DNA of 20,277 nt from a virus, in IMG/VR virus record IMGVR_UViG_3300032116_001635, positions 1 to 20,277 of that record; one strand, written 5' to 3'. This document shows, piece by piece, positions 11,051 through 20,277 of this stretch (position 1 is its first letter; the number at the start of each line of letters is the position of its first letter). The notes beneath the pieces were generated by a model. The model ran no database searches. It was not told where the DNA came from and saw nothing but the letters and a program-made list of their open reading frames with translations. The position numbers and the translations under genes were made by a program.

Positions 11051-11551
11051 TTATTTCTTCTTTAGCAAATCAAGAAGTTTTTCACCAACTTTTTTATTTC
11101 TTTCATCACTTGAAGCAGCTAGTTGTCTGGCATATTTCATGACAGCAACCATGCCCTGACCAGAAGACATAGCGACTTTTCGCAAATCATCACGGCTTTT
11201 GGCTTTGTGTGCTTCACCGCGTGATGGACCCTTTAGGGCTTCAGCTTCGGTTAAGTTTTCTCTCAAGCTTTCACGAATTAATTCTGTTAGATATTCTTTA
11301 GTAATTTTCATAGTTTTTTTCTCATTTAGTCCAAGATGCATTTTTATAACTGGTTCACTATTTATATATTTTTTAAATGATCCATAATCACCCGGATATA
11401 GATTATCCCAATTTCTAACTATATCCGCTATTTCTTTATGATTTCCATGAAATATATAATTAGTTAATGCATCTTCCCGTTTTTGTTTGATCCGCAAAGG
11501 TGCATATTCATATAGTTTCCACAATCTATATAGTTTGCTAGCTGTGTTCAT
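11051..11551 (-). CDS. Two-part ORF: unknown N-domain plus internal MKITKEYL protein
   Basis: 166-aa continuous frame. Residues 1-80 (MNTASKLYRLWKLYEYAPLRI...) form an unrelated Tyr/Arg-rich domain. Residue 81 begins MKITKEYLTELIRESLREN, followed by an 86-residue basic protein (GEAHKAKSRDDLRKV...KVGEKLLDLLKKK). The bases before the internal ATG at 11311 (ATGAGAAAAAAACT) resemble the AAGGAGAAAACT before the 10642 gene, so the second part probably was, or still is, translated on its own as 86 aa. TATAAATA at 11359-11366 could be a T4-type late promoter for it. Either a fusion or two nested products. Confidence 0.65.
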   Translation of the reverse strand: MNTASKLYRLWKLYEYAPLRIKQKREDALTNYIFHGNHKEIADIVRNWDNLYPGDYGSFKKYINSEPVIKMHLGLNEKKTMKITKEYLTELIRESLRENLTEAEALKGPSRGEAHKAKSRDDLRKVAMSSGQGMVAVMKYARQLAASSDERNKKVGEKLLDLLKKK

Positions 11552-11572
11552 ATAACATAAATAGTGTATATT

Positions 11573-11779
11573 TTATGAAATGTAAGCTAATTCATGATAA
11601 AAACAGCGGATTATCTGCCCATCATGTAAACTTTCTACAATATAATATTGCTCCATACCATCGGCACCAAACAGCATATCTAGAACAATACCATATCCTG
11701 CATCGCCGTTATCGATGGTCAAGGTTACCAAATCACCTGCTTCATAGACCCGGAAGTTATTTTTTCTTTTTATTGCCAT
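11573..11779 (-). CDS. Small SH3/KOW-like protein, 68 aa
   Basis: 68-aa beta-rich protein: YEAGDLVTLTIDNGDAGYGIVLDM...MEQYYIVESLHDGQIIRCFYHEL. GDLV, GYGIV and YYIVE...DG are the pattern of small phage SH3-like barrels. It overlaps the end of the upstream gene by 23 nt, whose 3' end must supply initiation context; no strong Shine-Dalgarno is visible. Function unknown. Confidence 0.72.
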   Translation of the reverse strand: MAIKRKNNFRVYEAGDLVTLTIDNGDAGYGIVLDMLFGADGMEQYYIVESLHDGQIIRCFYHELAYIS

Positions 11780-12065
11780 AAATGCCGTTGTATTTCTGTT
11801 TTATAAATTCACTAGCATACTCATATGTTGGATTCACTTTATAAATTTCTAACAATTCTTTTGCATTGGTGACACTCATTTCATCCGTTGGTGAAGTTTT
11901 ATTTTGTCTATCACTCCACTCGATCATATAATACGGTTGATTATTATATGTGCTAAGACCTCTATCAATAACGGTAGCAATGAGAAAACGTGGTTCTCCC
12001 AAGCTATCATCCCAGCTACCAAGGATATCTCCTATGTCGTGTTTATATTTCTTTGTCTTGCCCAT
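11757..12065 (-). CDS. SH3-like small protein, 102 aa
   Basis: 102-aa protein with KHDIGDILGSWDDSLGEPRFLIATVIDRG...NQPYYMIEWSD, a beta-barrel pattern akin to its neighbour, and a C-terminal helix plus Lys-rich end. It is the first gene left of the composition boundary and has no recognisable sigma70 promoter box next to its ATG, unlike the genes to its right. Function unknown. Confidence 0.65.
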   Translation of the reverse strand: MGKTKKYKHDIGDILGSWDDSLGEPRFLIATVIDRGLSTYNNQPYYMIEWSDRQNKTSPTDEMSVTNAKELLEIYKVNPTYEYASEFIKQKYNGIYGNKKKK

Positions 12066-12167
12066 AGAAATGAAAAATTCCCAATTTTGGTCCAGAGTTT
12101 ATTTTTGACCATAGCCTTTTTTATCCCATCACGATAGTTTCATAGAGACTTATATTTCGGTTGCATA
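12066..12167. other. Intergenic stretch at the composition boundary
   Basis: 102 bases without a gene. A weak GGTC/GACC inverted repeat is the only structure noted. The change from AT-rich to GC-richer sequence takes place around here. Confidence 0.4.
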
Positions 12168-12551
12168 TCAGAGGGATAGGGAGGGGAGGGGGGACTCCCT
12201 CCATGCCTTAGCAAAAAAACTTTTGTAACCGCTTTCAAACTTTCGCTGCTTTGTTTTATGCAACAGCTCAGGCAAGGTAAAGAAAATACTTTGACCAATG
12301 TTCCTATACATTCTATCCCATTCATCTGGGATGATCAACCCTTGCTCTGTCAAATGTGTCACAGCTTTTGTCACAGCTGTGTAAGCATAGACAAGATCAA
12401 ACAGTCTATCCAACTCATGTGCCTTATGCAAGTGCAGATAGTTATCAGCAGCAAAGGAGATACGCTTACCAGTGAAGCTCCATAGATTGTTTAGTCTATG
12501 AAGTGTCAAGGCAACCTTGTCTATCTCATGCTGGATGTTCTCATTAACCAT
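12168..12551 (-). CDS. Hypothetical helical protein, 127 aa, leaderless
   Basis: 127-aa protein (MVNENIQHEIDKVALTLHRL...), mostly helical with several His and Trp; no known domain. Its ATG lies 6 nt after the -10 box of a TTGCCT-17-TAGGAT promoter, so the mRNA should start at the ATG. The last codons (SPLPSLSL) are C-rich on the coding strand and cover a G-quadruplex-type G-run on the other. It is the leftmost gene of the leaderless array. Confidence 0.68.
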   Translation of the reverse strand: MVNENIQHEIDKVALTLHRLNNLWSFTGKRISFAADNYLHLHKAHELDRLFDLVYAYTAVTKAVTHLTEQGLIIPDEWDRMYRNIGQSIFFTLPELLHKTKQRKFESGYKSFFAKAWRESPLPSLSL

Positions 12552-12557
12552 ATGTCC

Positions 12558-12586
12558 ATCCTATCTCCCTCCGAGGTGGAAGGCAA
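12558..12586 (-). promoter_or_regulatory. Promoter of the 127-aa gene
   Basis: TTGCCT, 17 nt, TAGGAT; the ATG follows after GGACAT (6 nt), predicting a leaderless mRNA. Confidence 0.7.
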
Positions 12587-12601
12587 CAACAATCTTTTTA
12601 T

Positions 12602-12689
12602 TTGACTCCCCTACGCAGGCATGATATAATAGTGTCAGCCCCCCGCCCGAAAGGGCGGCTATTATAGCTCACCCAATCGGGGAAGTCAA
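12602..12689. promoter_or_regulatory. Convergent-promoter hairpin element E1
   Basis: Plus promoter TTGACT-17-TATAAT (12602-12630) with extended TGA; hairpin CCGCCC-GAAA-GGGCGG (12643-12658); minus promoter TTGACT-17-TATAAT (12689-12661). Lies 8 bp downstream of the DnaJ-type zinc-finger gene. Confidence 0.72.
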
Positions 12690-12697
12690 CAACTATC

Positions 12698-13066
12698 TTA
12701 ATACTCCCCAAGGTAACGGCGCTCCGCAGCGCACTCGCGCTCGTAGTCCGCACGGTCTTCCTCCGCACGGTCGTAGCCCTCACGCTCCGCGTCCGTGAGC
12801 GTGTCAAGGTCAGGCACGCGCACCTTGCCCGATGCGTTGCACTCGCGGCACGCAACATCGTGCTTGCCATTGAAATAAGCCTCGCGCTCCTCCTCATCGT
12901 CGAAGAGGTCATAGAACTCACTCTCGGTAAAACCGTTGGAAAAAGACTCAGGATCGTGCTTGCCGTTGCCCTCGCAACGCTCGCAAATCTCCCACTTGGT
13001 AGACACACTGATCTCCTGAAGCTCGTCGCCCACGCGAATCTCAATCGTCATTTCGTTCTTGGTCAT
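12698..13066 (-). CDS. DnaJ-type zinc-finger protein, 122 aa
   Basis: 122-aa acidic protein with ICERCEGNGKH (C28, C31) and ACRECNASGKV (C73, C76), the CxxCxGxG pair of DnaJ-like zinc fingers, separated by an acidic insert containing ESEFYDLFDDEEEREAYF. Similar small proteins are frequent in phages and environmental plasmids; function unknown, perhaps protein binding. Leaderless: the ATG is 6 nt after AATAAT. The C-terminus is Arg/Glu-rich. GC-rich codon use contrasts with the genes left of 12,100. Confidence 0.8.
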   Translation of the reverse strand: MTKNEMTIEIRVGDELQEISVSTKWEICERCEGNGKHDPESFSNGFTESEFYDLFDDEEEREAYFNGKHDVACRECNASGKVRVPDLDTLTDAEREGYDRAEEDRADYERECAAERRYLGEY

Positions 13067-13072
13067 AGCGGT

Positions 13073-13101
13073 ATTATTTCACAGGTCAGGTCCACACACA
13101 A
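13073..13101 (-). promoter_or_regulatory. Promoter of the DnaJ-type zinc-finger gene
   Basis: TTGTGT, 17 nt, AATAAT; ATG 6 nt further. Leaderless. Confidence 0.65.
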
Positions 13102-13136
13102 GCGTTTATTTATTTTTGCCACGCTGCGCTTTTAGC

Positions 13137-13222
13137 TTGACTCGCCACTACACATGGGGTATAATACCAGCCGCGCCTCTGGCGCGGGGGGCTAGTATAG
13201 CAAACCCCCCAACGCCTGTCAA
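13137..13222. promoter_or_regulatory. Convergent-promoter hairpin element E2
   Basis: Plus promoter TTGACT-17-TATAAT; hairpin CCGCGCC-TCT-GGCGCGG (13171-13187); minus promoter TTGACA-17-TATACT (13222-13194) whose -10 is flanked by GGGGGG and CCCCCC arms. The minus -35 directly abuts the TAG of the 63-aa gene. Confidence 0.78.
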
Positions 13223-13414
13223 CTAATATTCGTTCATGTACATATCCACCAGATCGTCGTGGATGTCGCCGTCCGTTTCCTCCCGGTCGTCCACCCTGCC
13301 GAACTCCTGTTCATCGTTGAACGCTTCCGCGCAGTCCAAGCACATCAGCTTGCCACCGTCAACAATGCACTGCCCGTGCAGCTTCACACCACAGTCGTCG
13401 CAGTTCTTGGTCAT
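13223..13414 (-). CDS. Zinc-ribbon miniprotein, 63 aa
   Basis: 63-aa protein: NCDDCGVKLHG (C5, C8) and LMCLDCAEAF (C25, C28) form a compact four-Cys zinc ribbon, followed by a very acidic tail (EETDGDIHDDLVDMYMNEY). The acidic tail could mimic nucleic acid or bind a basic host partner; that is speculation. Leaderless: ATG 6 nt after TATAAT. The stop TAG runs into the -35 of element E2. Confidence 0.78.
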   Translation of the reverse strand: MTKNCDDCGVKLHGQCIVDGGKLMCLDCAEAFNDEQEFGRVDDREETDGDIHDDLVDMYMNEY

Positions 13415-13420
13415 GGTGAT

Positions 13421-13450
13421 ATTATAGCTTTTTTTCTCTGAAGGAATCAA
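13421..13450 (-). promoter_or_regulatory. Promoter of the 63-aa zinc-ribbon gene
   Basis: TTGATT, 18 nt, TATAAT; ATG 6 nt further. The -35 begins 3 bases after the TAG of the preceding gene. Confidence 0.78.
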
Positions 13451-13453
13451 CTA

Positions 13454-13576
13454 CTAACGGCACATCTTTTTTCCCTGCTGCCGCTCGCAACGCTTCACCC
13501 ACCGCTTCAGGTAACGCTTGGCACCCTTCGTGCAGAGCCACATCTCGCTGCGCCGAATCTTCGTGAGCTTGTTCAT
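13454..13576 (-). CDS. Basic Cys-containing miniprotein, 40 aa
   Basis: 40-aa, strongly basic protein (MNKLTKIRRSEMWLCTKGAKRYLKRW...) with three Cys and alternating Arg/Lys. Expected to bind nucleic acid or an acidic protein, but no motif is diagnostic. Supported as a gene by its perfectly placed leaderless promoter (TATAAT 6 nt before ATG) and by the snug fit with the next promoter. Confidence 0.68.
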   Translation of the reverse strand: MNKLTKIRRSEMWLCTKGAKRYLKRWVKRCERQQGKKMCR

Positions 13577-13582
13577 GGGGAT

Positions 13583-13611
13583 ATTATACAGGAAAGCTGG
13601 GACGTTTGGAA
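13583..13611 (-). promoter_or_regulatory. Promoter of the 40-aa basic gene
   Basis: TTCCAA, 17 nt, TATAAT; ATG 6 nt further. An A-rich tract lies upstream of the -35 on the minus strand. Confidence 0.68.
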
Positions 13612-13637
13612 GCCCTTATCTTTTTTTTTCTTTTCTC

Positions 13638-13721
13638 TTGCTTTTGTTTCCAGACCTGATATAATGCCAGCCGCGCCAAAGGCGCGGGGGCTAGCTTATC
13701 ACTAACCCCCGGCCTTGTCAA
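13638..13721. promoter_or_regulatory. Convergent-promoter hairpin element E3
   Basis: Plus promoter TTGCTT-16-TATAAT with extended TGA; hairpin CCGCGCC-AAA-GGCGCGG (13671-13687); minus side TTGACA-17-TAAGCT (weak -10) flanked by GGGGG and CCCCC. Minus -35 is 4 nt from the stop of the 78-aa gene. Confidence 0.65.
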
Positions 13722-13725
13722 GCTA

Positions 13726-13962
13726 TTAGTTGTCCAGCGTCCACGTTTCAGTAGTCTCAACCTTTCGCGTGCGGATCATGCGAAAGACGTTGACATTGAG
13801 AGTGAAGTGGAGAATCTGATCCTCCACCTTGCAGGCAATCTCGTTGCCAACCACCACCGGGTTTTCCAGCACCACGCCAGCATCCGTGACGTAGAACATA
13901 CGCTGACCGTTGGACCGCTTGTAGCTGTTGAGCTTCGCCGCGATATCAGAGGAGGTAGCCAT
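13726..13962 (-). CDS. Hypothetical beta-rich protein, 78 aa, with leader
   Basis: 78-aa protein: a short helical N-terminus (ATSSDIAAKLNSYK) followed by alternating strands (RMFYVTDAGVVLENPVVVGNEIACKVEDQILHF) and a charged end. No family recognised. Unlike most neighbours it has a 40-nt leader with AAGGAAG before an A-rich spacer, and shares the leader element GCAGTTAACCCGCTGTA with the gene at 15164. Promoter TTGACA-18-TATAAT at 14032-14003. Confidence 0.72.
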   Translation of the reverse strand: MATSSDIAAKLNSYKRSNGQRMFYVTDAGVVLENPVVVGNEIACKVEDQILHFTLNVNVFRMIRTRKVETTETWTLDN

Positions 13963-13978
13963 GTTTTTTTTCTTCCTT

Positions 13979-13995
13979 TACAGCGGGTTAACTGC
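13979..13995 (-). promoter_or_regulatory. Shared 5'-leader motif, copy 1
   Basis: GCAGTTAACCCGCTGTA, identical at 15481-15497 and similar at 16225-16241, each just upstream of the Shine-Dalgarno. A second ACCCGCTGTA copy ends inside the -10 box of the same promoter. Confidence 0.6.
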
Positions 13996-14002
13996 GAGGG
14001 AT

Positions 14003-14032
14003 ATTATACAGCGGGTTTCTACTGCGTGTCAA
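14003..14032 (-). promoter_or_regulatory. Promoter of the 78-aa gene
   Basis: TTGACA, 18 nt, TATAAT; leader of about 34 nt. The TGA of the upstream 60-aa gene is inside the -35 hexamer. Confidence 0.8.
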
Positions 14033-14211
14033 ACTTCCTTTTCATCGACGGCAGTGTGAACGTTGCCGTCCCCGTCGATATACCAACAATCATCGCACAG
14101 GTCCATGTAAAAGACCTTGCCACTGAACCGGCTGACGCGGGACACCGTGAACCCCATGTTAGCAGGGATCTCCGTGTTGCACTCGTAGCACTTGCAGGTT
14201 TCGTCGTTCAT
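14029..14211 (-). CDS. Zinc-ribbon miniprotein, 60 aa
   Basis: 60-aa protein: KCYECNTEIPA (C8, C11, with C6 nearby) and LCDDCWYIDGDGN (C39, C42) make a zinc ribbon enclosing a beta hairpin (MGFTVSRVSRFSGKVFYM), and the tail is acidic. Leaderless: ATG 7 nt after GATAAT. Its promoter -35 lies in the 3' end of the 43-aa gene and its own stop is in the -35 of the next promoter. Confidence 0.78.
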   Translation of the reverse strand: MNDETCKCYECNTEIPANMGFTVSRVSRFSGKVFYMDLCDDCWYIDGDGNVHTAVDEKEV

Positions 14212-14218
14212 GGCGGTT

Positions 14219-14248
14219 ATTATCTCACAGGTTGCTAGGCAGGGTCAA
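14219..14248 (-). promoter_or_regulatory. Promoter of the 60-aa zinc-ribbon gene
   Basis: TTGACC, 18 nt, GATAAT; ATG 7 nt further. Overlaps the last codons and TGA of the 43-aa gene. Confidence 0.72.
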
Positions 14249-14356
14249 CATCTTCTTTTTCTTTTCTTTCCGCTTGACACAAAAGGAAATCTGGATCCGC
14301 CCGATGGACAGGAAGTAAAGACCGCCAACCCGCTTTGCCTTGATCAACTTGGTCAT
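14225..14356 (-). CDS. Basic miniprotein, 43 aa
   Basis: 43-aa protein MTKLIKAKRVGGLYFLSIGR..., a short strand-rich core followed by a Lys-rich run (KRKEKKKK). No family. It is supported by a leaderless promoter whose TAGAAT lies 6 nt before the ATG and by its end coinciding with the next promoter (CTG-TGA-GATAAT, the same junction as at the 54/38-aa gene pair). Confidence 0.65.
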   Translation of the reverse strand: MTKLIKAKRVGGLYFLSIGRIQISFCVKRKEKKKKMLTLPSNL

Positions 14357-14362
14357 GTGCCT

Positions 14363-14391
14363 ATTCTACAGGAAGATGGGGACGCACACAA
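14363..14391 (-). promoter_or_regulatory. Promoter of the 43-aa gene
   Basis: TTGTGT, 17 nt, TAGAAT; ATG 6 nt further. A run of seven C on the minus strand precedes the -35. Confidence 0.62.
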
Positions 14392-14426
14392 GGGGGGGAA
14401 CGCTTTTTCTTTTTTTCTTTTTGTTG

Positions 14427-14537
14427 TTGCTTTTCTTTTTTAGGTATGCTAAAATACCAGCCGCGCCACAGGCGCGGGCGGCTTGCACCAACCGTGCCAA
14501 TGGCTTTCTATATATCAGAAACCAAAAGCAAAGCCAA
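14427..14537. promoter_or_regulatory. Convergent-promoter hairpin element E4
   Basis: Plus promoter TTGCTT-17-TAAAAT; hairpin AGCCGCGCC-ACA-GGCGCGGGCGGCT (14459-14483); minus promoter TTGGCT-17-TATATA (14537-14509) lying within the 3' end of the 38-aa membrane gene, whose TGA immediately precedes the -10. Imperfect GGTTTC/GAAAGCC arms. Confidence 0.62.
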
Positions 14538-14631
14538 CCCACAGCAAAGAATAAATAAATGCGAACATGAAAACAACGGTCAGGAAATCCTTGACAACCG
14601 CAAGCTGCATCTGGATCTTTTCGTTTTGCAT
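14515..14631 (-). CDS. Mini membrane protein, 38 aa
   Basis: 38-aa protein MQNEKIQMQLAVVKDF...: an amphipathic start and one aromatic-rich membrane helix (about residues 16-38) running to the C-terminus. Leaderless: ATG 7 nt after GATAAT. Function unknown; small early phage membrane proteins often alter host envelope processes, which is only analogy. Note the frame continues upstream into the previous gene region, but the promoter position fixes this ATG. Confidence 0.68.
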   Translation of the reverse strand: MQNEKIQMQLAVVKDFLTVVFMFAFIYSLLWVGFAFGF

Positions 14632-14638
14632 GGACATT

Positions 14639-14667
14639 ATTATCTCACAGACGGACGATGTTTGCAA
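14639..14667 (-). promoter_or_regulatory. Promoter of the 38-aa membrane gene
   Basis: TTGCAA, 17 nt, GATAAT; ATG 7 nt further; entirely at the 3' end of the 54-aa gene. Confidence 0.7.
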
Positions 14668-14809
14668 GGCAACGGGACAGGATTGTTGAAGGGTCATTGA
14701 CGCATGAAGGGCAAACCTTGGTATCCTTATTGCTAGTCTGCCATTGTGTCAGGCACTTGACGCAGACAACCTTGTGAAGAACAATCTTGATACGCTTTGG
14801 CTTGGTCAT
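14645..14809 (-). CDS. Zinc-ribbon miniprotein, 54 aa
   Basis: 54-aa protein: KVVCVKCLTQWQ (C16, C19) and KVCPSCVNDP (C33, C36) give a compact rubredoxin-like zinc ribbon, preceded by a basic strand (MTKPKRIKIVLHK). Leaderless: ATG 7 nt after TATAAT. The longer in-frame ORF upstream is excluded by the promoter and by overlap with the neighbour. Its TGA abuts the -10 of the next gene. Confidence 0.78.
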   Translation of the reverse strand: MTKPKRIKIVLHKVVCVKCLTQWQTSNKDTKVCPSCVNDPSTILSRCLANIVRL

Positions 14810-14816
14810 GGCGGTC

Positions 14817-14845
14817 ATTATAGCATTCCTACTTTCCAAAAGCAA
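14817..14845 (-). promoter_or_regulatory. Promoter of the 54-aa zinc-ribbon gene
   Basis: TTGCTT, 17 nt, TATAAT; ATG 7 nt further. The -35 is inside the 3' codons of the 53-aa gene. Confidence 0.75.
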
Positions 14846-14990
14846 TAACGTACCTTGTAAAACGTTCACGCCTAATGTTTTCTTCACAGTTGCCGCAACG
14901 ATTATAGTTGACAAGGTTAGAGAAATAACCATAGTCGCAAACGTTGCAGTAGCGCCACTTGCTCATGAAATCGAAAGCGGTCTGGGTCAT
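14829..14990 (-). CDS. Zinc-ribbon miniprotein, 53 aa
   Basis: 53-aa protein: RYCNVCDYGYFS (C15, C18) and NRCGNCEENIRRERF (C32, C35), a treble-clef or ribbon-type four-Cys site with a basic helix after it, plausible for DNA or RNA binding. Leaderless: ATG 6 nt after TATAAT. A longer upstream extension of the frame would run through the hairpin element and promoter and is rejected. Confidence 0.78.
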   Translation of the reverse strand: MTQTAFDFMSKWRYCNVCDYGYFSNLVNYNRCGNCEENIRRERFTRYVIAFGK

Positions 14991-14996
14991 GGCGGT

Positions 14997-15025
14997 ATTA
15001 TATAGGAAGCCGTGGGTGCGTGCAA
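14997..15025 (-). promoter_or_regulatory. Promoter of the 53-aa zinc-ribbon gene
   Basis: TTGCAC, 17 nt, TATAAT; ATG 6 nt further. An A9 tract just upstream of the -35 could act as UP element. Confidence 0.8.
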
Positions 15026-15050
15026 GTACCCAACTATTTTTTTTTATTAG

Positions 15051-15163
15051 TTGCTTTTGTTTTTGACCTATGATATAATGTGCCAGCCGACGCCCGAAGG
15101 GCGGCTGCAACCTCTATGCCAAGGCTCCCGCCTATTCTAGCACGGGAGCCAGTGGCCTGTCAA
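15051..15163. promoter_or_regulatory. Convergent-promoter hairpin element E5
   Basis: Plus promoter TTGCTT-17-TATAAT (extended TGA); hairpin CAGCCGACGCCC-GAA-GGGCGGCTG; minus promoter TTGACA-18-TAGAAT. Palindrome GGCTCCCG (15123-15130), centre CCTATTCTAGCA, CGGGAGCC (15143-15150) surrounds the minus -10. The minus -35 abuts the TAG of the 101-aa gene. Confidence 0.82.
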
Positions 15164-15469
15164 CTAGGCTGCAATAATAATCTCGGACGGCGGATCAGGA
15201 AGCTGCCCGTTGTCAACCGAAAACGGCAGGGGACGCTGGATCGCGTCACCAACGGTCATGATGTTGCGAACGTGGGAATCAACCGTCCGCATGATGATCC
15301 CGCTGCGGATCGTTCCCTCGTTGCCGTTCTCGTCTACGAAAGCATAAACGTGACGGGTCTTTTTTGCATGGGCAATCAATGCCTTGACACTCACCGCGTG
15401 ACGGTGCCCACCGATCAGGTGGCCTGCCTTGGAACCCTTGGAACGAATCAAGCGACGAAAGATAATCAT
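15164..15469 (-). CDS. Hypothetical protein, 101 aa, with leader
   Basis: 101-aa protein: a basic N-terminus (MIIFRRLIRSKGSKAGH), a His-rich segment (IGGHRHAVSVKALIAHAKKTRH), then strands (VYAFVDENGNEGTIRSGIIMRTV) and a Pro-rich end. No family. GAGGAAAC precedes the ATG, with the leader motif GCAGTTAACCCGCTGTA upstream of it. Promoter TTGACG-18-TATAAT has its -35 in the last codons of the 61-aa gene. Confidence 0.72.
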   Translation of the reverse strand: MIIFRRLIRSKGSKAGHLIGGHRHAVSVKALIAHAKKTRHVYAFVDENGNEGTIRSGIIMRTVDSHVRNIMTVGDAIQRPLPFSVDNGQLPDPPSEIIIAA

Positions 15470-15480
15470 ATCGTTTCCTC

Positions 15481-15497
15481 TACAGCGGGTTAACTGC
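15481..15497 (-). promoter_or_regulatory. Shared 5'-leader motif, copy 2
   Basis: GCAGTTAACCCGCTGTA, identical over 17 nt to the leader of the 78-aa gene, between promoter and Shine-Dalgarno. Confidence 0.6.
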
Positions 15498-15503
15498 CCT
15501 GCT

Positions 15504-15533
15504 ATTATACGCTGAAACCTTAGTCGCCGTCAA
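15504..15533 (-). promoter_or_regulatory. Promoter of the 101-aa gene
   Basis: TTGACG, 18 nt, TATAAT; leader about 28 nt. The TAA of the 61-aa gene falls in the spacer. Confidence 0.75.
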
Positions 15534-15705
15534 CAATCTCGTCTGCCCAATAGTTCGCGTTAGTGCGAACATCCTTCCGATACTTGGAAAGCTTTTGCTC
15601 CGCGCACTTGGCGCAGACCCGTGCAAGCGGGATGCCGCGTGCATCGTTGACCCAATAGGAACCATCGTGCTTCGTGTGGATGCCGTTGCAGTTTTCGTTG
15701 GTCAT
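15520..15705 (-). CDS. Conserved phage protein with CxxC, 61 aa
   Basis: 61-aa protein: KHDGSYWVNDARGIPLARVCAKCAEQKLSKYR. The SYW.NDARGIPL.RVC.KC..EKLS.YR pattern is one I associate with a widespread family of uncharacterised small phage proteins. One CxxC (C31, C34) plus C6 and His10 could bind zinc. Leaderless: ATG 6 nt after TATAAT. Confidence 0.82.
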   Translation of the reverse strand: MTNENCNGIHTKHDGSYWVNDARGIPLARVCAKCAEQKLSKYRKDVRTNANYWADEIVDGD

Positions 15706-15711
15706 GCGCCT

Positions 15712-15741
15712 ATTATACACCGGGGTTTCTGAAAGAATCAA
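15712..15741 (-). promoter_or_regulatory. Promoter of the 61-aa gene
   Basis: TTGATT, 18 nt, TATAAT; ATG 6 nt further. Leaderless. Confidence 0.78.
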
Positions 15742-15766
15742 CTACCCGGATGCTTTTTTTTCGTCC

Positions 15767-15802
15767 TTGACTCTCCCGCGTGGATCGACTAACATGCGCG
15801 GG
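15767..15802 (+). promoter_or_regulatory. Possible extra plus-strand promoter with palindromic arms
   Basis: TTGACT, 17 nt, TAACAT; the -10 is enclosed by CCCGCG (15775-15780) and CGCGGG (15797-15802). It mirrors the layout of the minus palindromic promoters but on the other strand. No gene follows. Confidence 0.45.
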
Positions 15803-15840
15803 TTTGCCCGTGGGTAGGTGGAATTATTAGTTTTTTTTAT

Positions 15841-15947
15841 TTGCTTTTCTTTTTTGCCTATGATATAATAGCCGCCGGTTTCGGCGGCTTGCAACCCCTG
15901 TGCCAACCTGCCCACCTATTCTAGCATGGGCAGGGGCAAGGTGTCAA
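15841..15947. promoter_or_regulatory. Convergent-promoter hairpin element E6
   Basis: Plus promoter TTGCTT-17-TATAAT; hairpin GCCGCCG-GTTT-CGGCGGC (15871-15888); minus promoter TTGACA-18-TAGAAT. Palindrome CCTGCCCA (15907-15914), centre CCTATTCTAGCA, TGGGCAGG (15927-15934). The minus -35 abuts the TAG of the 87-aa gene. Confidence 0.83.
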
Positions 15948-16211
15948 CTAGGACTGATAGATTCCAGCGTCAACAAGAAACTTCTGATACTGCTCAAGAA
16001 GCTTGTCAAGGTTACGGGCAGGCTTGACACCGTTATCCGCGAGAATGTCCCGCGCCTGCTGCGCCACGTTGACACGATTAGAAAACTTCATGCCAATCTT
16101 TCGACCGTGCGCGTCAAGCTTCAATGCCTTGCCCAAAGCAATCAGGCGGTAGGTCATCACGCTGTCACCAGTGATCATCAGGGAACCGTCAGCGAGCTTT
16201 TCGATGGACAT
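15948..16211 (-). CDS. Hypothetical protein, 87 aa, with leader
   Basis: 87-aa protein: strands at the start (MSIEKLADGSLMITGDSVMTYRLIAL), then a basic helical part (GKALKLDAHGRKIGMKFSNRVNVAQQARDIL) and a helical tail. No family recognised. It has a 36-nt leader with GTAAGAAAG, and a promoter TTGACC-17-TATAAT whose -10 sits between GCCCGCA and TGCGGGC. Confidence 0.72.
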   Translation of the reverse strand: MSIEKLADGSLMITGDSVMTYRLIALGKALKLDAHGRKIGMKFSNRVNVAQQARDILADNGVKPARNLDKLLEQYQKFLVDAGIYQS

Positions 16212-16239
16212 TGTTTTTCTTTCTTACCGCGAGTGGACT

Positions 16240-16276
16240 GCCCGCATATTATAAACCCGTGCGGGCTACGGGTCAA
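16240..16276 (-). promoter_or_regulatory. Promoter of the 87-aa gene with palindromic arms
   Basis: TTGACC, 17 nt, TATAAT (16276-16248). Arms GCCCGCA (16240-16246) and TGCGGGC (16260-16266) surround the -10, a seven-base perfect inverted repeat with 13-nt centre. Confidence 0.78.
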
Positions 16277-16279
16277 GCA

Positions 16280-16501
16280 TTAAAAGATCTCTGCCTGCAC
16301 TTCCCGACGACGACCATCCCAAATGCGTGCGATCTCGCCAAACTCATGGATCGCATCTTCCAACGTGGTGACATTGACAAGCTCAAGCTCCTGTGCAATC
16401 TCCTCACGGGTCCAACACTCAACAATATAATCCCACCCGCTCACTTCGTAGTTTTCAACCGCGTGCTTCTGCAGCGCCTCTGCAATCTCGTTCGTGGTCA
16501 T
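16280..16501 (-). CDS. Hypothetical protein, 73 aa
   Basis: 73-aa helical acidic protein (MTTNEIAEALQKHAVENYEVSGWDYIVECWTREEIAQEL...EFGEIARIWDGRRREVQ). No known domain. The ATG at 16501 lies 6 nt after AATAAT; a GTG two codons upstream would be inside the untranscribed gap and is rejected. Similar helical small proteins occur in phages with unknown role. Confidence 0.72.
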   Translation of the reverse strand: MTTNEIAEALQKHAVENYEVSGWDYIVECWTREEIAQELELVNVTTLEDAIHEFGEIARIWDGRRREVQAEIF

Positions 16502-16507
16502 GGGCAC

Positions 16508-16537
16508 ATTATTTCATGAAGTGGTGGGTAGGGTCAA
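16508..16537 (-). promoter_or_regulatory. Promoter of the 73-aa gene
   Basis: TTGACC, 18 nt, AATAAT; ATG 6 nt further. A9 tract upstream of the -35. Confidence 0.68.
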
Positions 16538-16562
16538 GTACCCATTTATTTTTTTTTATTAG

Positions 16563-16673
16563 TTGCTTTTTGTTTTTGCCTGTGATATAATAGCAGCCGC
16601 CGCGCCCTGCGCGGCTGGCACGCTTCTTGCGTTGCCCCCCACCTATTCTAGCATGAGGGGCAAGGCGAGTCAA
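16563..16673. promoter_or_regulatory. Convergent-promoter hairpin element E7
   Basis: Plus promoter TTGCTT-17-TATAAT (extended TGA); hairpin CGCGC-CCT-GCGCG within CAGC/GCTG; minus promoter TTGACT-17-TAGAAT. Palindrome TTGCCCCCCA, centre CCTATTCTAGCA (16642-16653), TGAGGGGCAA with one mismatch in ten. Confidence 0.82.
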
Positions 16674-16677
16674 GTTT

Positions 16678-16929
16678 TTACTTCACCCATTCCCAACCGG
16701 GAGCGGGCATGACCCCCGTAAGATTACTAGACTGTGTGATAATGAAAGGCTTGATCTCACTCATGCACACATCACCACGCTCCACCACACTTCCCATGAC
16801 AACCGCTTCGCGGATATCAGAATCCACCTTGTTGTCAATGATATAAAACTCCCAAAAGCCACGGGTGCAGATGTGCTTGTGGACTTCAACAATCGAACCA
16901 GTTTCATTGTTCTTCATCTTACGGGGCAT
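16678..16929 (-). CDS. Conserved phage protein, 83 aa, with leader
   Basis: 83-aa protein: a basic start, then EVHKHICTRGFWEFYIIDNKVDSDIREAVVMGSVVERGDVCMSEIKPFI. The GFWEFYI...D.R.A.VMG...E.GDV...EIKP(Y/F)I pattern resembles a family found across many phages, of unknown function; I recall the pattern, not a name. Transcribed from TTGCAA-17-TAGAAT with a 32-nt leader carrying TAGGAAAG. Confidence 0.8.
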   Translation of the reverse strand: MPRKMKNNETGSIVEVHKHICTRGFWEFYIIDNKVDSDIREAVVMGSVVERGDVCMSEIKPFIITQSSNLTGVMPAPGWEWVK

Positions 16930-16961
16930 GGTTTGCTTTCCTAGTTGCGGGGTGATGTGAT

Positions 16962-16990
16962 ATTCTACCGCGTCCGGTTCCGCTTTGCAA
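16962..16990 (-). promoter_or_regulatory. Promoter of the 83-aa gene
   Basis: TTGCAA, 17 nt, TAGAAT; the TAG of the 51-aa gene is the first half of the -10 box. Leader about 26-32 nt. Confidence 0.75.
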
Positions 16991-17120
16991 GCTTTGCCTT
17001 ACTGATTTCTTCGTCGATAATCTTTTCAACAAGCTTGATTGTTCGCAGATATGCACGGTCAAGCTTTTTGTATTCCTTGTCCAAAGTTTCCTGCGCTGCC
17101 TTGAGTGCTTTCTTGTTCAT
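16965..17120 (-). CDS. Basic coiled-coil miniprotein, 51 aa
   Basis: 51-aa protein (MNKKALKAAQETLDKEYKKL...), one long amphipathic helix with heptad leucines/isoleucines, ending in a basic KRNRTR. Probably oligomeric; no family. Leaderless: ATG 6 nt after TATAAT. The promoter lies within the last codons of the gene upstream and its own stop forms part of the next promoter. Confidence 0.75.
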   Translation of the reverse strand: MNKKALKAAQETLDKEYKKLDRAYLRTIKLVEKIIDEEISKAKLAKRNRTR

Positions 17121-17126
17121 GCGCGT

Positions 17127-17156
17127 ATTATAGACCGGGAATATCCACGGAGTCAA
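17127..17156 (-). promoter_or_regulatory. Promoter of the 51-aa gene
   Basis: TTGACT, 18 nt, TATAAT; ATG 6 nt further. The TAA of the 66-aa gene is inside the -10 box. Confidence 0.8.
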
Positions 17157-17328
17157 CACCTGTATTCTTTTTCCAGTACTCCCGCTCGTTGGCACAGTCC
17201 ATGCATATGTAGTGATCCTTGACTGTGCCCAAATGTCCTACATGTGGGAGAGTTCCCTCTATGTAGGGCGCTGTCGTTACCGTGCTTACATGGGTGGGTG
17301 TCCCGCAATCATCACAATCTATAAACAT
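17128..17328 (-). CDS. Zinc-ribbon miniprotein, 66 aa
   Basis: 66-aa protein: FIDCDDCGTPTHV (C5, C8) and HYICMDCANEREYW (C42, C45) form a zinc ribbon with a 33-residue loop rich in Thr, Gly and His. Leaderless: ATG 6 nt after TAGGAT. It resembles the 60- and 63-aa ribbons in layout (CDDC near the N-terminus), so these may share ancestry. Confidence 0.78.
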   Translation of the reverse strand: MFIDCDDCGTPTHVSTVTTAPYIEGTLPHVGHLGTVKDHYICMDCANEREYWKKNTGVDSVDIPGL

Positions 17329-17334
17329 GGGTCC

Positions 17335-17363
17335 ATCCTAGCAGGTACCTGCCCAACAATCAA
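17335..17363 (-). promoter_or_regulatory. Promoter of the 66-aa zinc-ribbon gene
   Basis: TTGATT, 17 nt, TAGGAT; ATG 6 nt further. TAG of the 60-aa ORF forms the first half of the -10. Confidence 0.7.
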
Positions 17364-17520
17364 CCCCTTGACAACTAGCCGCCGTTTCTCGGCGGCTGCA
17401 ATACCCATGCCAAGCGGTATCTAATATAATGATTAATAGGTATCTTTCCCTTTCCCTATTAATCTGTTCTGTGGTAGATGTTCGCGCCGGAAGCAGTTCG
17501 GAGGCGAGAAAAGACCACAT
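17338..17520 (-). CDS. Possible gene of 60 aa running through a hairpin
   Basis: 60-aa frame MWSFLASELLPARTSTTEQ..., Cys/Arg-rich at the end. In favour: TTGCCT-17-TATAAT placed 6 nt before its ATG, and a stop that merges with the next promoter, as for accepted genes. Against: no family, odd composition, and an element-type hairpin (17377-17397) lies inside the frame, so only the first part may be an ancestral gene or it may be fortuitous. Confidence 0.45.
   Translation of the reverse strand: MWSFLASELLPARTSTTEQINRERERYLLIIILDTAWHGYCSRRETAASCQGVDCWAGTC
17377..17397. repeat. Degenerate hairpin element E8
   Basis: AGCCGCCG-TTTCT-CGGCGGCT, followed on the plus strand by TGCAATACCCATGCCAA, matching the TGCAACC...ATGCCAA of E5 and E6. 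Convergent promoters are missing or decayed. Confidence 0.6.
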
Positions 17521-17526
17521 TCTTTT

Positions 17527-17555
17527 ATTATACTATTAAATCAAACCCAAGGCAA
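17527..17555 (-). promoter_or_regulatory. Promoter of the 60-aa ORF
   Basis: TTGCCT, 17 nt, TATAAT; ATG 6 nt further. The -35 is in the last codons of the 76-aa gene and the TAA in the spacer. Confidence 0.65.
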
Positions 17556-17766
17556 GCAAAATGCTAGGACAATCATGCTCGCACCTTCCATCAGGTTCCA
17601 CCTCGCATCCTTCCTTACAAAGCGCGGGACACACACAATCGCTAACAAGATCTTCGATCAAGTTAAGACGATCCTCGATTCCATTATCCTCGCAATACTG
17701 AGAGAGAGTAATACGATAAGGATTCTTAACCTTCGCCTCGTTTGCCGTTGCCGTGGTGGTTTGCAT
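17536..17766 (-). CDS. Conserved Cys-rich phage protein, 76 aa
   Basis: 76-aa protein whose C-terminal half is DCVCPALCKEGCEVEPDGRC followed by EHDCPSILLALGLI: six Cys in a short span. The PALC.EGCEVEPDG.CEHGCPS pattern is one I associate with small proteins in many phages and plasmids, function unknown; it may bind zinc or form a Cys-rich knot. Leaderless: ATG at 17766, 6 nt after TATAAT; the 12-codon upstream extension overlaps the promoter and is rejected. Confidence 0.85.
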   Translation of the reverse strand: MQTTTATANEAKVKNPYRITLSQYCEDNGIEDRLNLIEDLVSDCVCPALCKEGCEVEPDGRCEHDCPSILLALGLI

Positions 17767-17772
17767 GGGGAT

Positions 17773-17802
17773 ATTATACCTTAGCTTGCCTGCTACTGTC
17801 AA
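17773..17802 (-). promoter_or_regulatory. Promoter of the 76-aa gene
   Basis: TTGACA, 18 nt, TATAAT; ATG 6 nt further. A T10 tract (minus strand) lies upstream. Confidence 0.85.
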
Positions 17803-17807
17803 CCCAT

Positions 17808-17864
17808 ATAGAAGAAAAAAAAAATTGAACGAGGGGGTGGGTGGGTGGAACCCTTTTTTTATTT
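17808..17864. terminator. Probable bidirectional terminator region
   Basis: GGGT-GGA-ACCC is followed on the plus strand by TTTTTTTATTTTT; on the minus strand the GGGT-TCC-ACCC stem is followed after a C-rich stretch by T10. The plus strand also carries a near G-quadruplex run at 17831-17848. Confidence 0.5.
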
Positions 17865-17987
17865 TTACTGGATAACCCCCATCCCATAGCTATACAAAGC
17901 TAGGACGGCAGCGATGATCATAATACTAAGGACACCCATGTTAACCAAAGTATTAAGTTCATCCATGTTAACCTGAAACTTATTCAT
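17865..17987 (-). CDS. Mini membrane protein, 40 aa
   Basis: 40-aa protein MNKFQVNMDELNTLVNMGVL... with one membrane helix (about residues 15-34). Its ATG overlaps the stop of the upstream gene (ATGA), so it is translated by coupling and has no promoter of its own. Same plan as the 33-aa protein at 10107 (Asn-rich start, ELxxLV, one helix). Possible holin-like or envelope role is only a guess. Confidence 0.7.
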   Translation of the reverse strand: MNKFQVNMDELNTLVNMGVLSIMIIAAVLALYSYGMGVIQ

Positions 17988-18235
17988 CCATCCACCTTAT
18001 AGAAAACACCATTCGAGAGATTAACGTGCCGATACTGATGGGAACCATTCGGCAGATACTCTACCACAAGCGCATGAGTCTCTGCAACGGGAATGTTATC
18101 CCGCTGTGGACGGCAACGGGAAGCCTGCCAAGTCTTACCATTAACAGGATCAAGATCCTTTGCAAAGGAAAAGTTAATCGTGCGGATGCTGTTATCAAGC
18201 TTCGTGAAATGACCGACATACTTAGGAGCGTTCAT
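17984..18235 (-). CDS. Hypothetical beta-rich protein, 83 aa, with leader
   Basis: 83-aa protein: YVGHFTKLDNSIRTINFSFAKDLD...TWQASRCRPQ...ETHALVVEYLPNGSHQYRHVNLSNGVFYKVDG. Alternating strands end in a HVNLSNG.FYKV segment typical of small phage proteins of unknown role. AAAGGGAAAC precedes the ATG after a 29-nt leader; promoter TTGACA-17-TAGAAT. Its stop overlaps the start of the 40-aa membrane gene. Confidence 0.75.
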   Translation of the reverse strand: MNAPKYVGHFTKLDNSIRTINFSFAKDLDPVNGKTWQASRCRPQRDNIPVAETHALVVEYLPNGSHQYRHVNLSNGVFYKVDG

Positions 18236-18264
18236 GTTTTTTGTTTCCCTTTCGTTGTTAGGTG

Positions 18265-18293
18265 ATTCTACCATTCCCCACGGTCACTGTCAA
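18265..18293 (-). promoter_or_regulatory. Promoter of the 83-aa beta-rich gene
   Basis: TTGACA, 17 nt, TAGAAT; the TAG of the 56-aa gene is the first half of the -10. Followed by a 29-nt leader. Confidence 0.8.
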
Positions 18294-18438
18294 CGGCATC
18301 CCGGCATTTCTTTTTATTGCTTTCCCGCTTCCTATCCTTATGCACGTTTGCCTTTGTTGCGCCGTTAATCAACATTAGCTGATACACATCCCGCGAAGTA
18401 TCAACATATTCCCGCTTATCCTTGTATGTCTTTCCCAT
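18268..18438 (-). CDS. Basic hydrophilic miniprotein, 56 aa
   Basis: 56-aa protein MGKTYKDKREYVDTSRDVYQ..., strongly charged (KDRKRESNKKK) with one Cys; no family. Translation is probably coupled: AAGGA overlaps the stop of the 64-aa gene and the ATG is 7 nt further. A TATAAT lies 1 nt before the ATG with TTGATT 17 nt upstream, but such a promoter would start inside the gene. Confidence 0.7.
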   Translation of the reverse strand: MGKTYKDKREYVDTSRDVYQLMLINGATKANVHKDRKRESNKKKCRDAVDSDRGEW

Positions 18439-18448
18439 GATTATATCC

Positions 18449-18643
18449 TTACAGCGAGATAGAATCAACCTTGCTAATCATACGCTGAAGCACAAGCGTA
18501 AGATCCTGCTGTCCCCAATAATGATCAACAATCTGCCAATCATCAGGGAGATTATACTTTGCTCGCAGAGCAGAAGCAACCGTTTCCACAATCTCCTGAC
18601 GGGTGACAACAACATCCTTTGCTTCGTAGCTTTCGATTTTCAT
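18449..18643 (-). CDS. Hypothetical protein, 64 aa
   Basis: 64-aa protein: MKIESYEAKDVVVTRQEIVETVASALRAKY followed by NLPDDWQIVDHYWG and a strand-rich end. The DW.I..HYWGQQ segment suggests a compact alpha/beta fold; no family named. The ATG at 18643 is fixed by the promoter (TATAAT 7 nt upstream); the longer frame to 18679 overlaps that promoter and is rejected. Followed by a coupled gene. Confidence 0.74.
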   Translation of the reverse strand: MKIESYEAKDVVVTRQEIVETVASALRAKYNLPDDWQIVDHYWGQQDLTLVLQRMISKVDSISL

Positions 18644-18650
18644 GGCGCTT

Positions 18651-18679
18651 ATTATACCCTTCCCGCGTGGTGGATGCAA
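18651..18679 (-). promoter_or_regulatory. Promoter of the 64-aa gene
   Basis: TTGCAT, 17 nt, TATAAT; ATG 7 nt further. A7 tract upstream of the -35. Confidence 0.78.
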
Positions 18680-18694
18680 GCACTACTTTTTTTC

Positions 18695-18799
18695 TTGACT
18701 ACCGCTTGACATTGTGATACACTTGTGGCGGCTAGTTGGCGGCTGCGCCAGCACACTCCCGCACCACCATATTCTAGCATGGTGCGGATCGTCTGTCAA
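18695..18799. promoter_or_regulatory. Convergent-promoter hairpin element E9
   Basis: Plus promoter TTGACT-17-TACACT (weaker -10, TGA extended); duplicated GGCGGCT repeats; minus promoter TTGACA-17-TAGAAT. Palindrome CCGCACCA (18759-18766), centre CCATATTCTAGCA, TGGTGCGG (18780-18787) around the minus -10. Confidence 0.75.
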
Positions 18800-18805
18800 T
18801 ACCTA

Positions 18806-19468
18806 TCAGCGGAAAAACTTCGACTGTGCATCCGTCAACTTTTTGACGCCGTGGTAAACAAGTCCAATCTTTACATCCCCAAGAATAGCAGGAAGATCGT
18901 TAATGTTACCATCGACATATCCCGCATTGATACGATCATCATCCGTTGAAAAGATACGGGAGTGAGGCTTAGTGAGATCTACCTGATCATCATACTTCCC
19001 GCCAAGCGATTGCACAAGCTTAAAGTTAACGGGAAGGTTAGAAAAAAGATCAAGGTGCATACTCTTAGTGTATGCATAAAACGTGACATTAGGGAAAACG
19101 CTAGCGGCACGCTTCCACGCATCGAGATAAGCTTGCGTGTGAAAGTCCCCGGAATCATGGATCCGCACGGTATTATACTTGCGGGAAACCTTGGCAAGAT
19201 CGTTCACAAGCATATCAGAATACTCGGGAAGGAAGGAAGCCTGAAGATTAAAGAAACGCGCTTCCCGAACATTCCTGAAAAGATAGGTTCCCTGCTTTGC
19301 ATAGCACACACCACGGCACGCGCTAGCACCGGGACAGCTATTAACCCCATTGATATCGGTATCAGCGGAGATACCATATCCAACAATCTTGAAAGCTTCA
19401 CCGCTAGTCTTTTCAAGCTTGCTGTTACCGTAGGTCCACTTGAGGAAGGTGTCGTTGTTGTTGGGCAT
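18806..19468 (-). CDS. Gp88-like phage protein, 220 aa
   Basis: 220-aa protein resembling the phage Gp88 family (name from memory of mycobacteriophage gene product 88). Visible: NGVNSCPGASACRGVCYAKQG with C45, C51 and C55, a three-Cys pattern fit for a metal or Fe-S cluster; VRIHDSGDFHTQAYLDAW (102-118) with H104, D105 and D108; and TFYAYTKS (129-136). The fold may be TIM-barrel-like and the Cys arrangement recalls radical-SAM enzymes, though the spacing C-x5-C-x3-C is not the canonical CxxxCxxC. It is the largest gene of the array. Leaderless: ATG 6 nt after TAGAAT. Confidence 0.82.
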   Translation of the reverse strand: MPNNNDTFLKWTYGNSKLEKTSGEAFKIVGYGISADTDINGVNSCPGASACRGVCYAKQGTYLFRNVREARFFNLQASFLPEYSDMLVNDLAKVSRKYNTVRIHDSGDFHTQAYLDAWKRAASVFPNVTFYAYTKSMHLDLFSNLPVNFKLVQSLGGKYDDQVDLTKPHSRIFSTDDDRINAGYVDGNINDLPAILGDVKIGLVYHGVKKLTDAQSKFFR

Positions 19469-19474
19469 GGCGGT

Positions 19475-19504
19475 ATTCTACCTCGGAAGGGATGCGACGG
19501 TCAA
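19475..19504 (-). promoter_or_regulatory. Promoter of the Gp88-like gene
   Basis: TTGACC, 18 nt, TAGAAT; ATG 6 nt further. Leaderless. Confidence 0.8.
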
Positions 19505-19550
19505 CCCACGGGATGCGTTTTTCTTTTTTCGTTCCCCCCGCTTTTTCCCC

Positions 19551-19579
19551 TTGACAACGGGGGCTGGATTTGATATACT
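19551..19579 (+). promoter_or_regulatory. Orphan plus-strand promoter
   Basis: TTGACA, 17 nt, TATACT with TGA extension: a near-consensus sigma70 promoter at the right end of the GC-rich block, with no ORF after it. Confidence 0.78.
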
Positions 19580-19585
19580 GGGGGT

Positions 19586-19642
19586 TTGCCTTTTTTCCGT
19601 GACCATATGTTGCCATACGTTAACATATGATACAATTTTTTT
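19586..19642 (+). ncRNA. Predicted short plus-strand RNA
   Basis: Bounded by the promoter at 19551-19579 and by a terminator: CATATGTT / AACATATG stem (19604-19629) followed by TTTTTTT at 19636-19642. No ORF fits in these ~57 nt. Start is estimated as 7 nt after the -10. Confidence 0.5.
19604..19642 (+). terminator. Intrinsic terminator of the short RNA
   Basis: Perfect 8-bp stem, 10-nt loop, then ATACAA and seven T on the plus strand. Confidence 0.6.
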
Positions 19643-19644
19643 AG

Positions 19645-19726
19645 ATCTGCAAAGTTAAAACTCTATACATTTGCAGATATATAAACTTTTACATTCCAAA
19701 GAACAATGTAGTATATTTCCTACATT
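19645..19726. repeat. AT-rich stem-loops downstream of the last gene
   Basis: Two inverted repeats: ATCTGCAAA/TTTGCAGAT (19645-19678) and AATGTAG/CTACATT (19705-19726). No T-run follows on the minus strand, so they are not clear terminators for the gene at 19761. Confidence 0.5.
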
Positions 19727-19760
19727 CCCAACATCCATAGATTCCTATATATCTATATCC

Positions 19761-20126
19761 TTATACTTTTATGTCTACCTTTATATTCTTTAGGAAAGCT
19801 TTAGTATCCTGCTTTTCCTGTATGATTAGCGGATTCTTATCTTTATATACAACCATTAATCTAGGAATATGGGGATCAAATGTTACCCAGTTATCTTCAC
19901 TAGGATTAATATATCTATGCAATTCTTCTTCATCTAATTCATATCCGCTATCCCAACGTGTTCCGCAGCATTTGCAATCTATCTCGAAATTAGGATCAAA
20001 GTATGTTCCATTAATAGACAGGAATCTAGCTTCTGCTTCTTCCCTATTATCCGCTTCTATGATAATAAGCTTTGCAGGTTCTTTAAATGTTCCCCTGCTA
20101 TTGTTTTGATGGAATCTATAAAACAT
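19761..20126 (-). CDS. Conserved phage protein with CxCCGxRW motif, 121 aa
   Basis: 121-aa protein: N-terminal YRFHQNNSRGTF, then AKLIIIEADNREEAEARF, a G.YFDP segment, and IDCKCCGTRWDSGY (C51, C53, C54). The HQNNS.G.F...IIEA...A....G.YF....DC.CCG.RW order matches a widespread uncharacterised phage family (DUF7296-like by memory). A metal site from the three Cys is likely. Composition is AT-rich again, and initiation uses AAGGTG ahead of the ATG rather than a leaderless promoter. Confidence 0.85.
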   Translation of the reverse strand: MFYRFHQNNSRGTFKEPAKLIIIEADNREEAEARFLSINGTYFDPNFEIDCKCCGTRWDSGYELDEEELHRYINPSEDNWVTFDPHIPRLMVVYKDKNPLIIQEKQDTKAFLKNIKVDIKV

Positions 20127-20204
20127 ACATCACCTTATATATGTATACATCTACGCACAAGTGCGTGGGTGGGGGGTACCCTACTGGGTAACTGGGTTAC
20201 GGTG

Positions 20205-20248: not shown

Positions 20249-20277
20249 ATTCGCTGGGGGGCAATGAAAAAAAAAAG

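Follow-up and report, generated by a model that had tools for sequence, protein, structure and literature searches.

A dense block of small phage genes with host-type promoters placed for predicted leaderless expression

Can a phage express a whole block of genes from messages that begin with the start codon itself? The question is raised by IMGVR_UViG_3300032116_001635, a viral record in IMG/VR of 20,277 bases, the whole of which was analysed here (the window) and which encodes a ClpP-like head protease, an endolysin, an HNH gene and a transfer-messenger RNA (tmRNA). It contains a block of 23 genes, all on the minus strand and reading from 19504 to 12168, and most of them have a promoter-like -10 box a few nucleotides (nt) before the ATG. 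Based on the results of this study, the block is probably (about four chances in five) an array of mostly single-gene units that would be transcribed by a host sigma70-type polymerase, with the A of the ATG as the first transcribed base, and translated by leaderless initiation.

Two rules were used to count such starts. Under the relaxed rule, the -10 box had at least four of the six bases of TATAAT, including A2 and T6, and ended 6 or 7 nt before the ATG, and the -35 box had at least three of six matches at 16-19 nt; under the strict rule, at least five of six -10 matches were needed and the -35 box (again at least three of six) lay at 16-18 nt. Sixteen of the 23 genes passed the relaxed rule, with the -35 box 17-18 nt further upstream, and 14 passed the strict one. 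Sixteen also count as leaderless by the promoter-based definition, which requires a -10 box ending 6-8 nt ahead of the ATG, so that +1 falls on its A. The original prediction had counted 17 leaderless genes among 24; the array itself is real, but these exact counts did not hold. The additional gene was probably the open reading frame (ORF) at 17520-17338 (TATAAT, 6 nt, ATG), which shares sequence with the hairpin in one of the intergenic elements and was not counted as a gene. It lies outside the ortholog set, and no counterpart was seen in the matching stretch of relative A, described below.

When the strict rule was applied to dinucleotide-shuffled upstream 60-mers of the window, a mean of 0.11 genes passed (maximum 2 in 2000 shuffles), against 14 in the real sequence. 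Every other -10-to-ATG distance from 2 to 30 nt was found in at most one window gene. Among the 22 window genes outside the block there was one weak chance match, and Shine-Dalgarno (SD) sequences are common there, while most leaderless block genes are without one. A survey of 172 unrelated viral contigs (1.63 Mb) gave at most two such starts in any one of them, against 14 in the window, and a search with the start motif as a DNA pattern matched 57 stretches, with no array outside this lineage.

The pattern is shared by relatives of the phage. Relative A (G001, 43 kb) was found by protein search, and relatives B (G002, 75 kb) and C (G003, 119 kb) by a search with the intergenic element; since G004 and the window represent one and the same phage, the number of independent relatives is three. 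The strict count was 12 of 21 genes in A, 6 of 11 in B and 7 of 13 in C, and the shuffles over the four phages gave means of 0.04-0.12 with a maximum of 2 in 2000. The 6-7 nt spacing is thus conserved, and its loss in relatives, named beforehand as grounds for rejecting the array, was not observed. In the compared orthologs, substitutions were in excess at third positions, and these genes are therefore coding.

The four phages together provided 39 starts with a -10 box of at least five matches at 6-7 nt. A TTG -35 hexamer lies 17 nt above the -10 box in 21 of them and 18 nt above in 16, as had been claimed for the window, so that 37 of 39 have the arrangement of a sigma70-type promoter (a TTGACA-like hexamer 16-18 bp upstream of a TATAAT-like one); of the remaining spacings between 10 and 26 that were tried, none occurred more than three times. 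Base -1 is C and base -6 is A in 37 of 39 each, and codon 2 is ACC in 22 and AAC in 11. The sequence geometry, its conservation and the coding status of the compared genes are established by these comparisons.

Each unit would accordingly be read as a promoter (-35, 17-18 nt, -10) followed by a short gene, with a C-rich stretch of the form A-N-S-S-N-C between the -10 box and the ATG. Sigma70 polymerase prefers a pyrimidine-purine initiator. With C at -1 before A, the CA of C-ATG would be such an initiator and the favoured one, and transcription is expected to start on the A of the ATG; the original prediction of this start point agrees with the geometry and with its conservation in the relatives. 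The messages would then open with AUG, mostly AUG-ACC or AUG-AAC, and their translation would begin at this 5' AUG without a leader, while a minority of the genes would keep leaders of about 25-40 nt. Expression of the block may involve 70S or modified ribosomes and might thereby avoid SD competition. The small, variable genes and the host-type promoters suggest that the block could be expressed early, for host takeover.

The promoters could also be real but initiate a few bases upstream, or serve mainly read-through polycistronic RNA, so that the closeness of -10 box and ATG would reflect genome compaction. Space is indeed short, since there are genes that begin right at the preceding stop codon and -35 boxes that fall within the upstream gene, and the leadered genes show that both modes coexist. 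However, more than half of the leaderless genes lie behind an intergenic stretch of about 100-240 nt bearing an element, and their 6-7 nt spacing equals that of the genes close behind a stop codon; simple compaction is therefore unlikely to be the cause. Moreover, most of the leaderless genes have no SD sequence, and the C at -1 together with the near-invariant A at -6 speaks for a fixed start point. We regard this explanation as unlikely. Less likely still, the whole block could be a sink for RNA polymerase that competes with host promoters, with the leaderless genes as a by-product. There are about 35 promoters in 7 kb, several of them in face-to-face pairs without a gene, and positions 10001-20277 hold 61 promoter-like sites against 18.9 expected; the ORF-less sense promoters described below face antisense promoters. 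However, the genes are conserved as coding, and a sink would not need a fixed start geometry. Finally, the TATAAT-like box lies where an SD sequence or enhancer could be, within otherwise GC-rich DNA, and might be an unstructured A/T-rich patch that helps ribosomes to enter at SD-less starts, but the TTG hexamer at exactly 17 or 18 nt is explained by a -35/-10 promoter and not by a ribosome patch, which makes this very improbable.

Several points weigh against an array of leaderless single-gene units. Use of host sigma70 and the competence of the host for leaderless translation are assumptions, and read-through from upstream promoters could add leadered, polycistronic copies of the same genes. 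The genes starting at 17328, 12551 and 13066 are weak cases; that at 12551 is doubtful because of its TAGGAT -10 box, its GGAGGGAG-like SD sequence and its SD-bearing leadered orthologs in three relatives. A distant GP88-carrying relative, L006, has no such starts.

Genes of the two classes stand side by side in the block. The genes at 18235, 16929, 16211, 15469 and 13962 (positions of the ATG) are leadered, with the -10 box about 25-40 nt upstream, and those at 18438 and 17987 are coupled to the preceding gene. The class is kept in most ortholog families: 15705, 14990, 14809, 14211, 13414 and 19468 are leaderless in every relative that holds them, and 18235, 16211, 15469 and 13962 are leadered in all. 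The exceptions were found in the comparison with A, where 17766 is leadered, 17328 has a 9-nt gap, and 16929, leadered here, also has a 9-nt gap. Compared with A, the window has a different set and order of genes, with 17766, 16929, 14809 and 16501 at different places (the comparison spans window 12168-19468 and L022 1096-8036). Every phage has genes that are missing from some of the others, and the promoter-start motif stays ahead of differing genes, which fits an exchange of gene-plus-promoter units between relatives. The features are listed in Table 1.

Table 1. Genes and intergenic elements of the block in the window. Promoters are given as -35 box, spacer, -10 box and, for leaderless genes, distance to the ATG (position in parentheses); d, -10-to-ATG distance in nt; ext., extended -10.
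Feature	Position	Strand	Sequence features	Relatives
GP88-like gene, 220 aa	18806..19504	-	TTGACC-18-TAGAAT-6-ATG(19468); Pfam GP88 E=2e-34	ortholog A1096 80% identical, d=6
Element	18715..18799	-	P1 TTGACA-17-TAGAAT, no ORF behind; -10 inside hairpin CCGCACCA/TGGTGCGG	
64-aa gene	18449..18679	-	TTGCAT-17-TATAAT-7-ATG(18643)	no homolog in relatives
76-aa gene	17536..17802	-	TTGACA-18-TATAAT-6-ATG(17766)	ortholog in A leadered
66-aa gene, weaker case	17128..17363	-	TTGATT-17-TAGGAT-6-ATG(17328)	ortholog A3229, gap 9 nt
51-aa gene	16965..17156	-	TTGACT-18-TATAAT-6-ATG(17120)	ortholog d=7
Element	16586..16673	-	P1 TTGACT-17-TAGAAT in hairpin 2; hairpin 1; antisense TTGCTT-17-TATAAT (ext. TGA), + strand	
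73-aa gene	16280..16537	-	TTGACC-18-AATAAT-6-ATG(16501)	ortholog d=7
Element	15859..15947	-	P1 TTGACA-18-TAGAAT in hairpin 2; TTGGCA-N6-TTGCA; hairpin 1; antisense -10 TATAAT 15864; RNA fold z=-4.5	
61-aa gene	15520..15741	-	TTGATT-18-TATAAT-6-ATG(15705)	d=6 in 3/3 relatives
101-aa leadered gene, minority class	15164..15533	-	TTGACG-18-TATAAT, ~30-nt leader, ATG 15469	leadered in all relatives
Element	15074..15163	-	P1 TTGACA-18-TAGAAT in hairpin GGCTCCCG/CGGGAGCC; hairpin 1; antisense promoter	
53-aa gene	14829..15025	-	TTGCAC-17-TATAAT-6-ATG(14990)	orthologs in A and B, d=6
54-aa gene	14645..14845	-	TTGCTT-17-TATAAT-7-ATG(14809)	orthologs d=6-7 in 3/3 relatives
38-aa gene	14515..14667	-	TTGCAA-17-GATAAT-7-ATG(14631)	no homolog in relatives
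43-aa gene	14225..14391	-	TTGTGT-17-TAGAAT-6-ATG(14356)	ortholog C1900 d=6
60-aa gene	14029..14248	-	TTGACC-18-GATAAT-7-ATG(14211)	ortholog A6866 d=6
Element	13660..13722	-	hairpin 1 and antisense promoter (TATAAT 13660); weak P1	
40-aa gene	13454..13611	-	TTCCAA-17-TATAAT-6-ATG(13576)	no homolog in relatives
63-aa gene	13223..13450	-	TTGATT-18-TATAAT-6-ATG(13414)	d=6 in 3/3 relatives
Element	13160..13222	-	P1 TTGACA-17-TATACT in hairpin GGGGGG/CCCCCC; hairpin 1; antisense TTGACT-17-TATAAT	
122-aa gene	12698..13101	-	TTGTGT-17-AATAAT-6-ATG(13066)	weak -10 only at matching place
Element	12625..12689	-	P1 TTGACT-17-TATAAT; hairpin; antisense TTGACT-17-TATAAT (ext. TGA)	
127-aa gene, doubtful leaderless case	12168..12586	-	TTGCCT-17-TAGGAT-6-ATG(12551); SD-like GGAGGGAG	orthologs leadered with SD in A, B, C

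The genes fall into sets of one to several, parted by about nine intergenic elements (window 12600-18800). At the start of many of these, directly after a stop codon, is a sense promoter, P1 (TTGACA, 17 or 18 nt, then TGCTAGAAT, TATACT or TATAAT), which is strong but has no ORF behind it. In many of them P1 is followed by TTGGCA-N6-TTGCA, a GC-rich hairpin (hairpin 1) and then a promoter on the opposite strand, typically TTGCTT with TGATATAAT and a T-rich tract. In most elements the -10 box of P1 sits in the loop of a second hairpin. The eight distinct arm pairs of hairpin 2 form 59 perfect pairs in total, a number reached by the true pairing only among 40,320 permutations, and the promoters of the leaderless genes have no such arms. 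In orthologous elements (behind the GP88, 87-aa and 101-aa genes) both arms have changed with the pairing kept. RNAalifold gave a weak result on the mixed alignment of elements because loop lengths differ, and the arms were therefore tested directly. Folding energies of the 40-nt P1 windows range from -14 to -28 kcal/mol, whereas the leaderless promoters average -3.3. Folding is more favourable on the sense strand in 16 of 17 cases, by a mean of 4.1 kcal against 1.05 in a perfect-arm control; as the copies in B and C are near-duplicates, the window and A were also taken alone, with the sense strand better in 10 of 11 (p=0.012). This preference points to selection of the hairpin in sense, read-through RNA. 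Similar elements occur in L005 (10660-16450), L011 (1020-1130) and L014 (1005-1110). L011 and L014 come from one metagenome and both contigs begin at the identical base within the block, suggesting that the assembly breaks there through strain variation.

The evolutionary evidence that these elements are under selection is strong, and they are the least explained part of the block. Tentatively, and with odds clearly below even, the block may consist of modular cassettes (a promoter plus a leaderless gene) parted by a new regulatory element, in which the sense -10 box lies in the loop of a compensatorily kept RNA hairpin beside an opposing promoter, and which could set message ends, insulate the units or make non-coding RNAs. 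Several other identities were rejected. Terminator-like sites numbered 11 against 9.5 expected, there were no U-tracts in the elements and the distance from stem to T-rich tract varies, which argues against intrinsic terminators; in an Rfam search, the tmRNA and tRNAs alone matched, and no element scored above the gathering threshold. No ATG lies at the right place for small leaderless ORFs behind P1. An extra sense promoter across hairpin 1 (TTGCA..TATTAT) has a spacer of varying length, and TTGCTT-TGATATAAT was too common to be used as a search pattern. At 4000-12200, in the gaps of a series of small genes that look leadered and have SD sequences, L006 has a repeated GGGGCCGGCCCC palindrome of its own, which precedes A-tracts and promoter-like TGTGAGATAA motifs.

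The phage lineage is T4-like, as judged from relative C rather than from the window itself: this 119-kb contig encodes a T4-type Gp23 major capsid protein (E=2e-70) and a T4-type terminase, the latter about 44% identical to those of the Flavobacterium phage immuto and the Microcystis phage Mel-JY01, the nearest T4-like isolates. There was no entry near-identical to the window among phage isolates. Two IMG/VR alignment searches for further relatives returned only the same four lineages and one weak partial match, and a search for relatives in GTDB gave no match. In the search for a host, no GTDB genome had an exact match to the tRNA-Glu. A phage sigma factor was represented by a weak match only, in one relative, and the partial contigs of the relatives yielded no homologue of IF3. 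The phage-encoded tmRNA (window 1635-1980, tag ANDNVELSDYALAA) had no similar counterpart in the phage collection. From about 0.23-0.36 in the first 12 kb, the GC content goes up to about 0.42-0.52 across 12-20 kb, and the block forms the GC-rich part. The rise from about 0.3 to about 0.5 is confined to the block (window 12100-19800); relative A has a smaller rise and returns to about 0.3 past its block.

Leaderless phage messages have precedents. Single messages of this kind, among them that of lambda cI (transcribed from PRM), have a sigma70 promoter with the RNA starting at the AUG; the placement of the promoter is alike, but these are single genes and not an array. In the host-takeover module of SPO1, small early genes are clustered and served by many strong host-type promoters, much as is proposed here, but these genes have ribosome-binding sites. 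In the Thermus thermophilus phage phiYS40, middle and late promoters consist essentially of a -10-like element only and are spread over the genome, and from the 2007 work of Sevostyanova the leaderless messages are reportedly read by host polymerase. Most middle and late mRNAs of phiYS40 are leaderless and IF2/IF3 are shifted (review, PMC3594737), contrary to the earlier view that whole blocks of such genes were not known. phiYS40 thus resembles the present phage in its many leaderless messages; it differs in that full -35/-10 promoters are found here, in one dense block of small variable genes, while most other window genes are built otherwise, and the single weak match outside the block does not indicate phage-wide leaderless expression of the phiYS40 type within the window.

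Among bacteria, -10 boxes abutting ORFs are common in Deinococcus-Thermus, where leaderless mRNA arises from a -10 hexamer at constant spacing to the ORF (PMC12340547), and leaderless messages are common in mycobacteria (PMC4633059), making up about a quarter of transcripts. Leaderless mRNA from a -10 hexamer set at a fixed ORF distance is the likeness to the present block; there, however, it is a host-wide habit with a TANNNT motif, and here it is a single phage block with recognisable -35 boxes. The bimodal leaders of Lactococcus, of <5 or about 40 nt (PMC10986495), resemble the two gene classes of the block. Among described phage patterns that combine repeated start-linked motifs and inverted repeats, the nearest we came across is the SAS/ESAS of cluster K mycobacteriophages, in which a motif recurs a few bases ahead of the start codon in many small genes and roughly half of the copies have an additional inverted repeat (PMC3203893). 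The 13-bp SAS, GGGATAGGAGCCC, located 3-7 bp before the start, had no match here with up to two mismatches, and ESAS repeats share a consensus, whereas here the hairpin arms vary by site and complementarity alone is kept. Given the precedents in phiYS40 and Deinococcus-Thermus, the array is no new principle; what looks new is its compact, shuffled, promoter-per-gene form together with the intergenic hairpin-promoter elements.

A natural dense array with the start codon at the predicted +1, present in four phages beside leadered genes, would be a ready test set for what leaderless initiation needs, such as the initiating base, codon 2 and structure. It also allows one to ask why a phage would use leaderless starts for one class of genes only. 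Gene callers that rely on SD sequences may misjudge such starts, and the hairpin-embedded promoters between the genes present an unexplained regulatory element.

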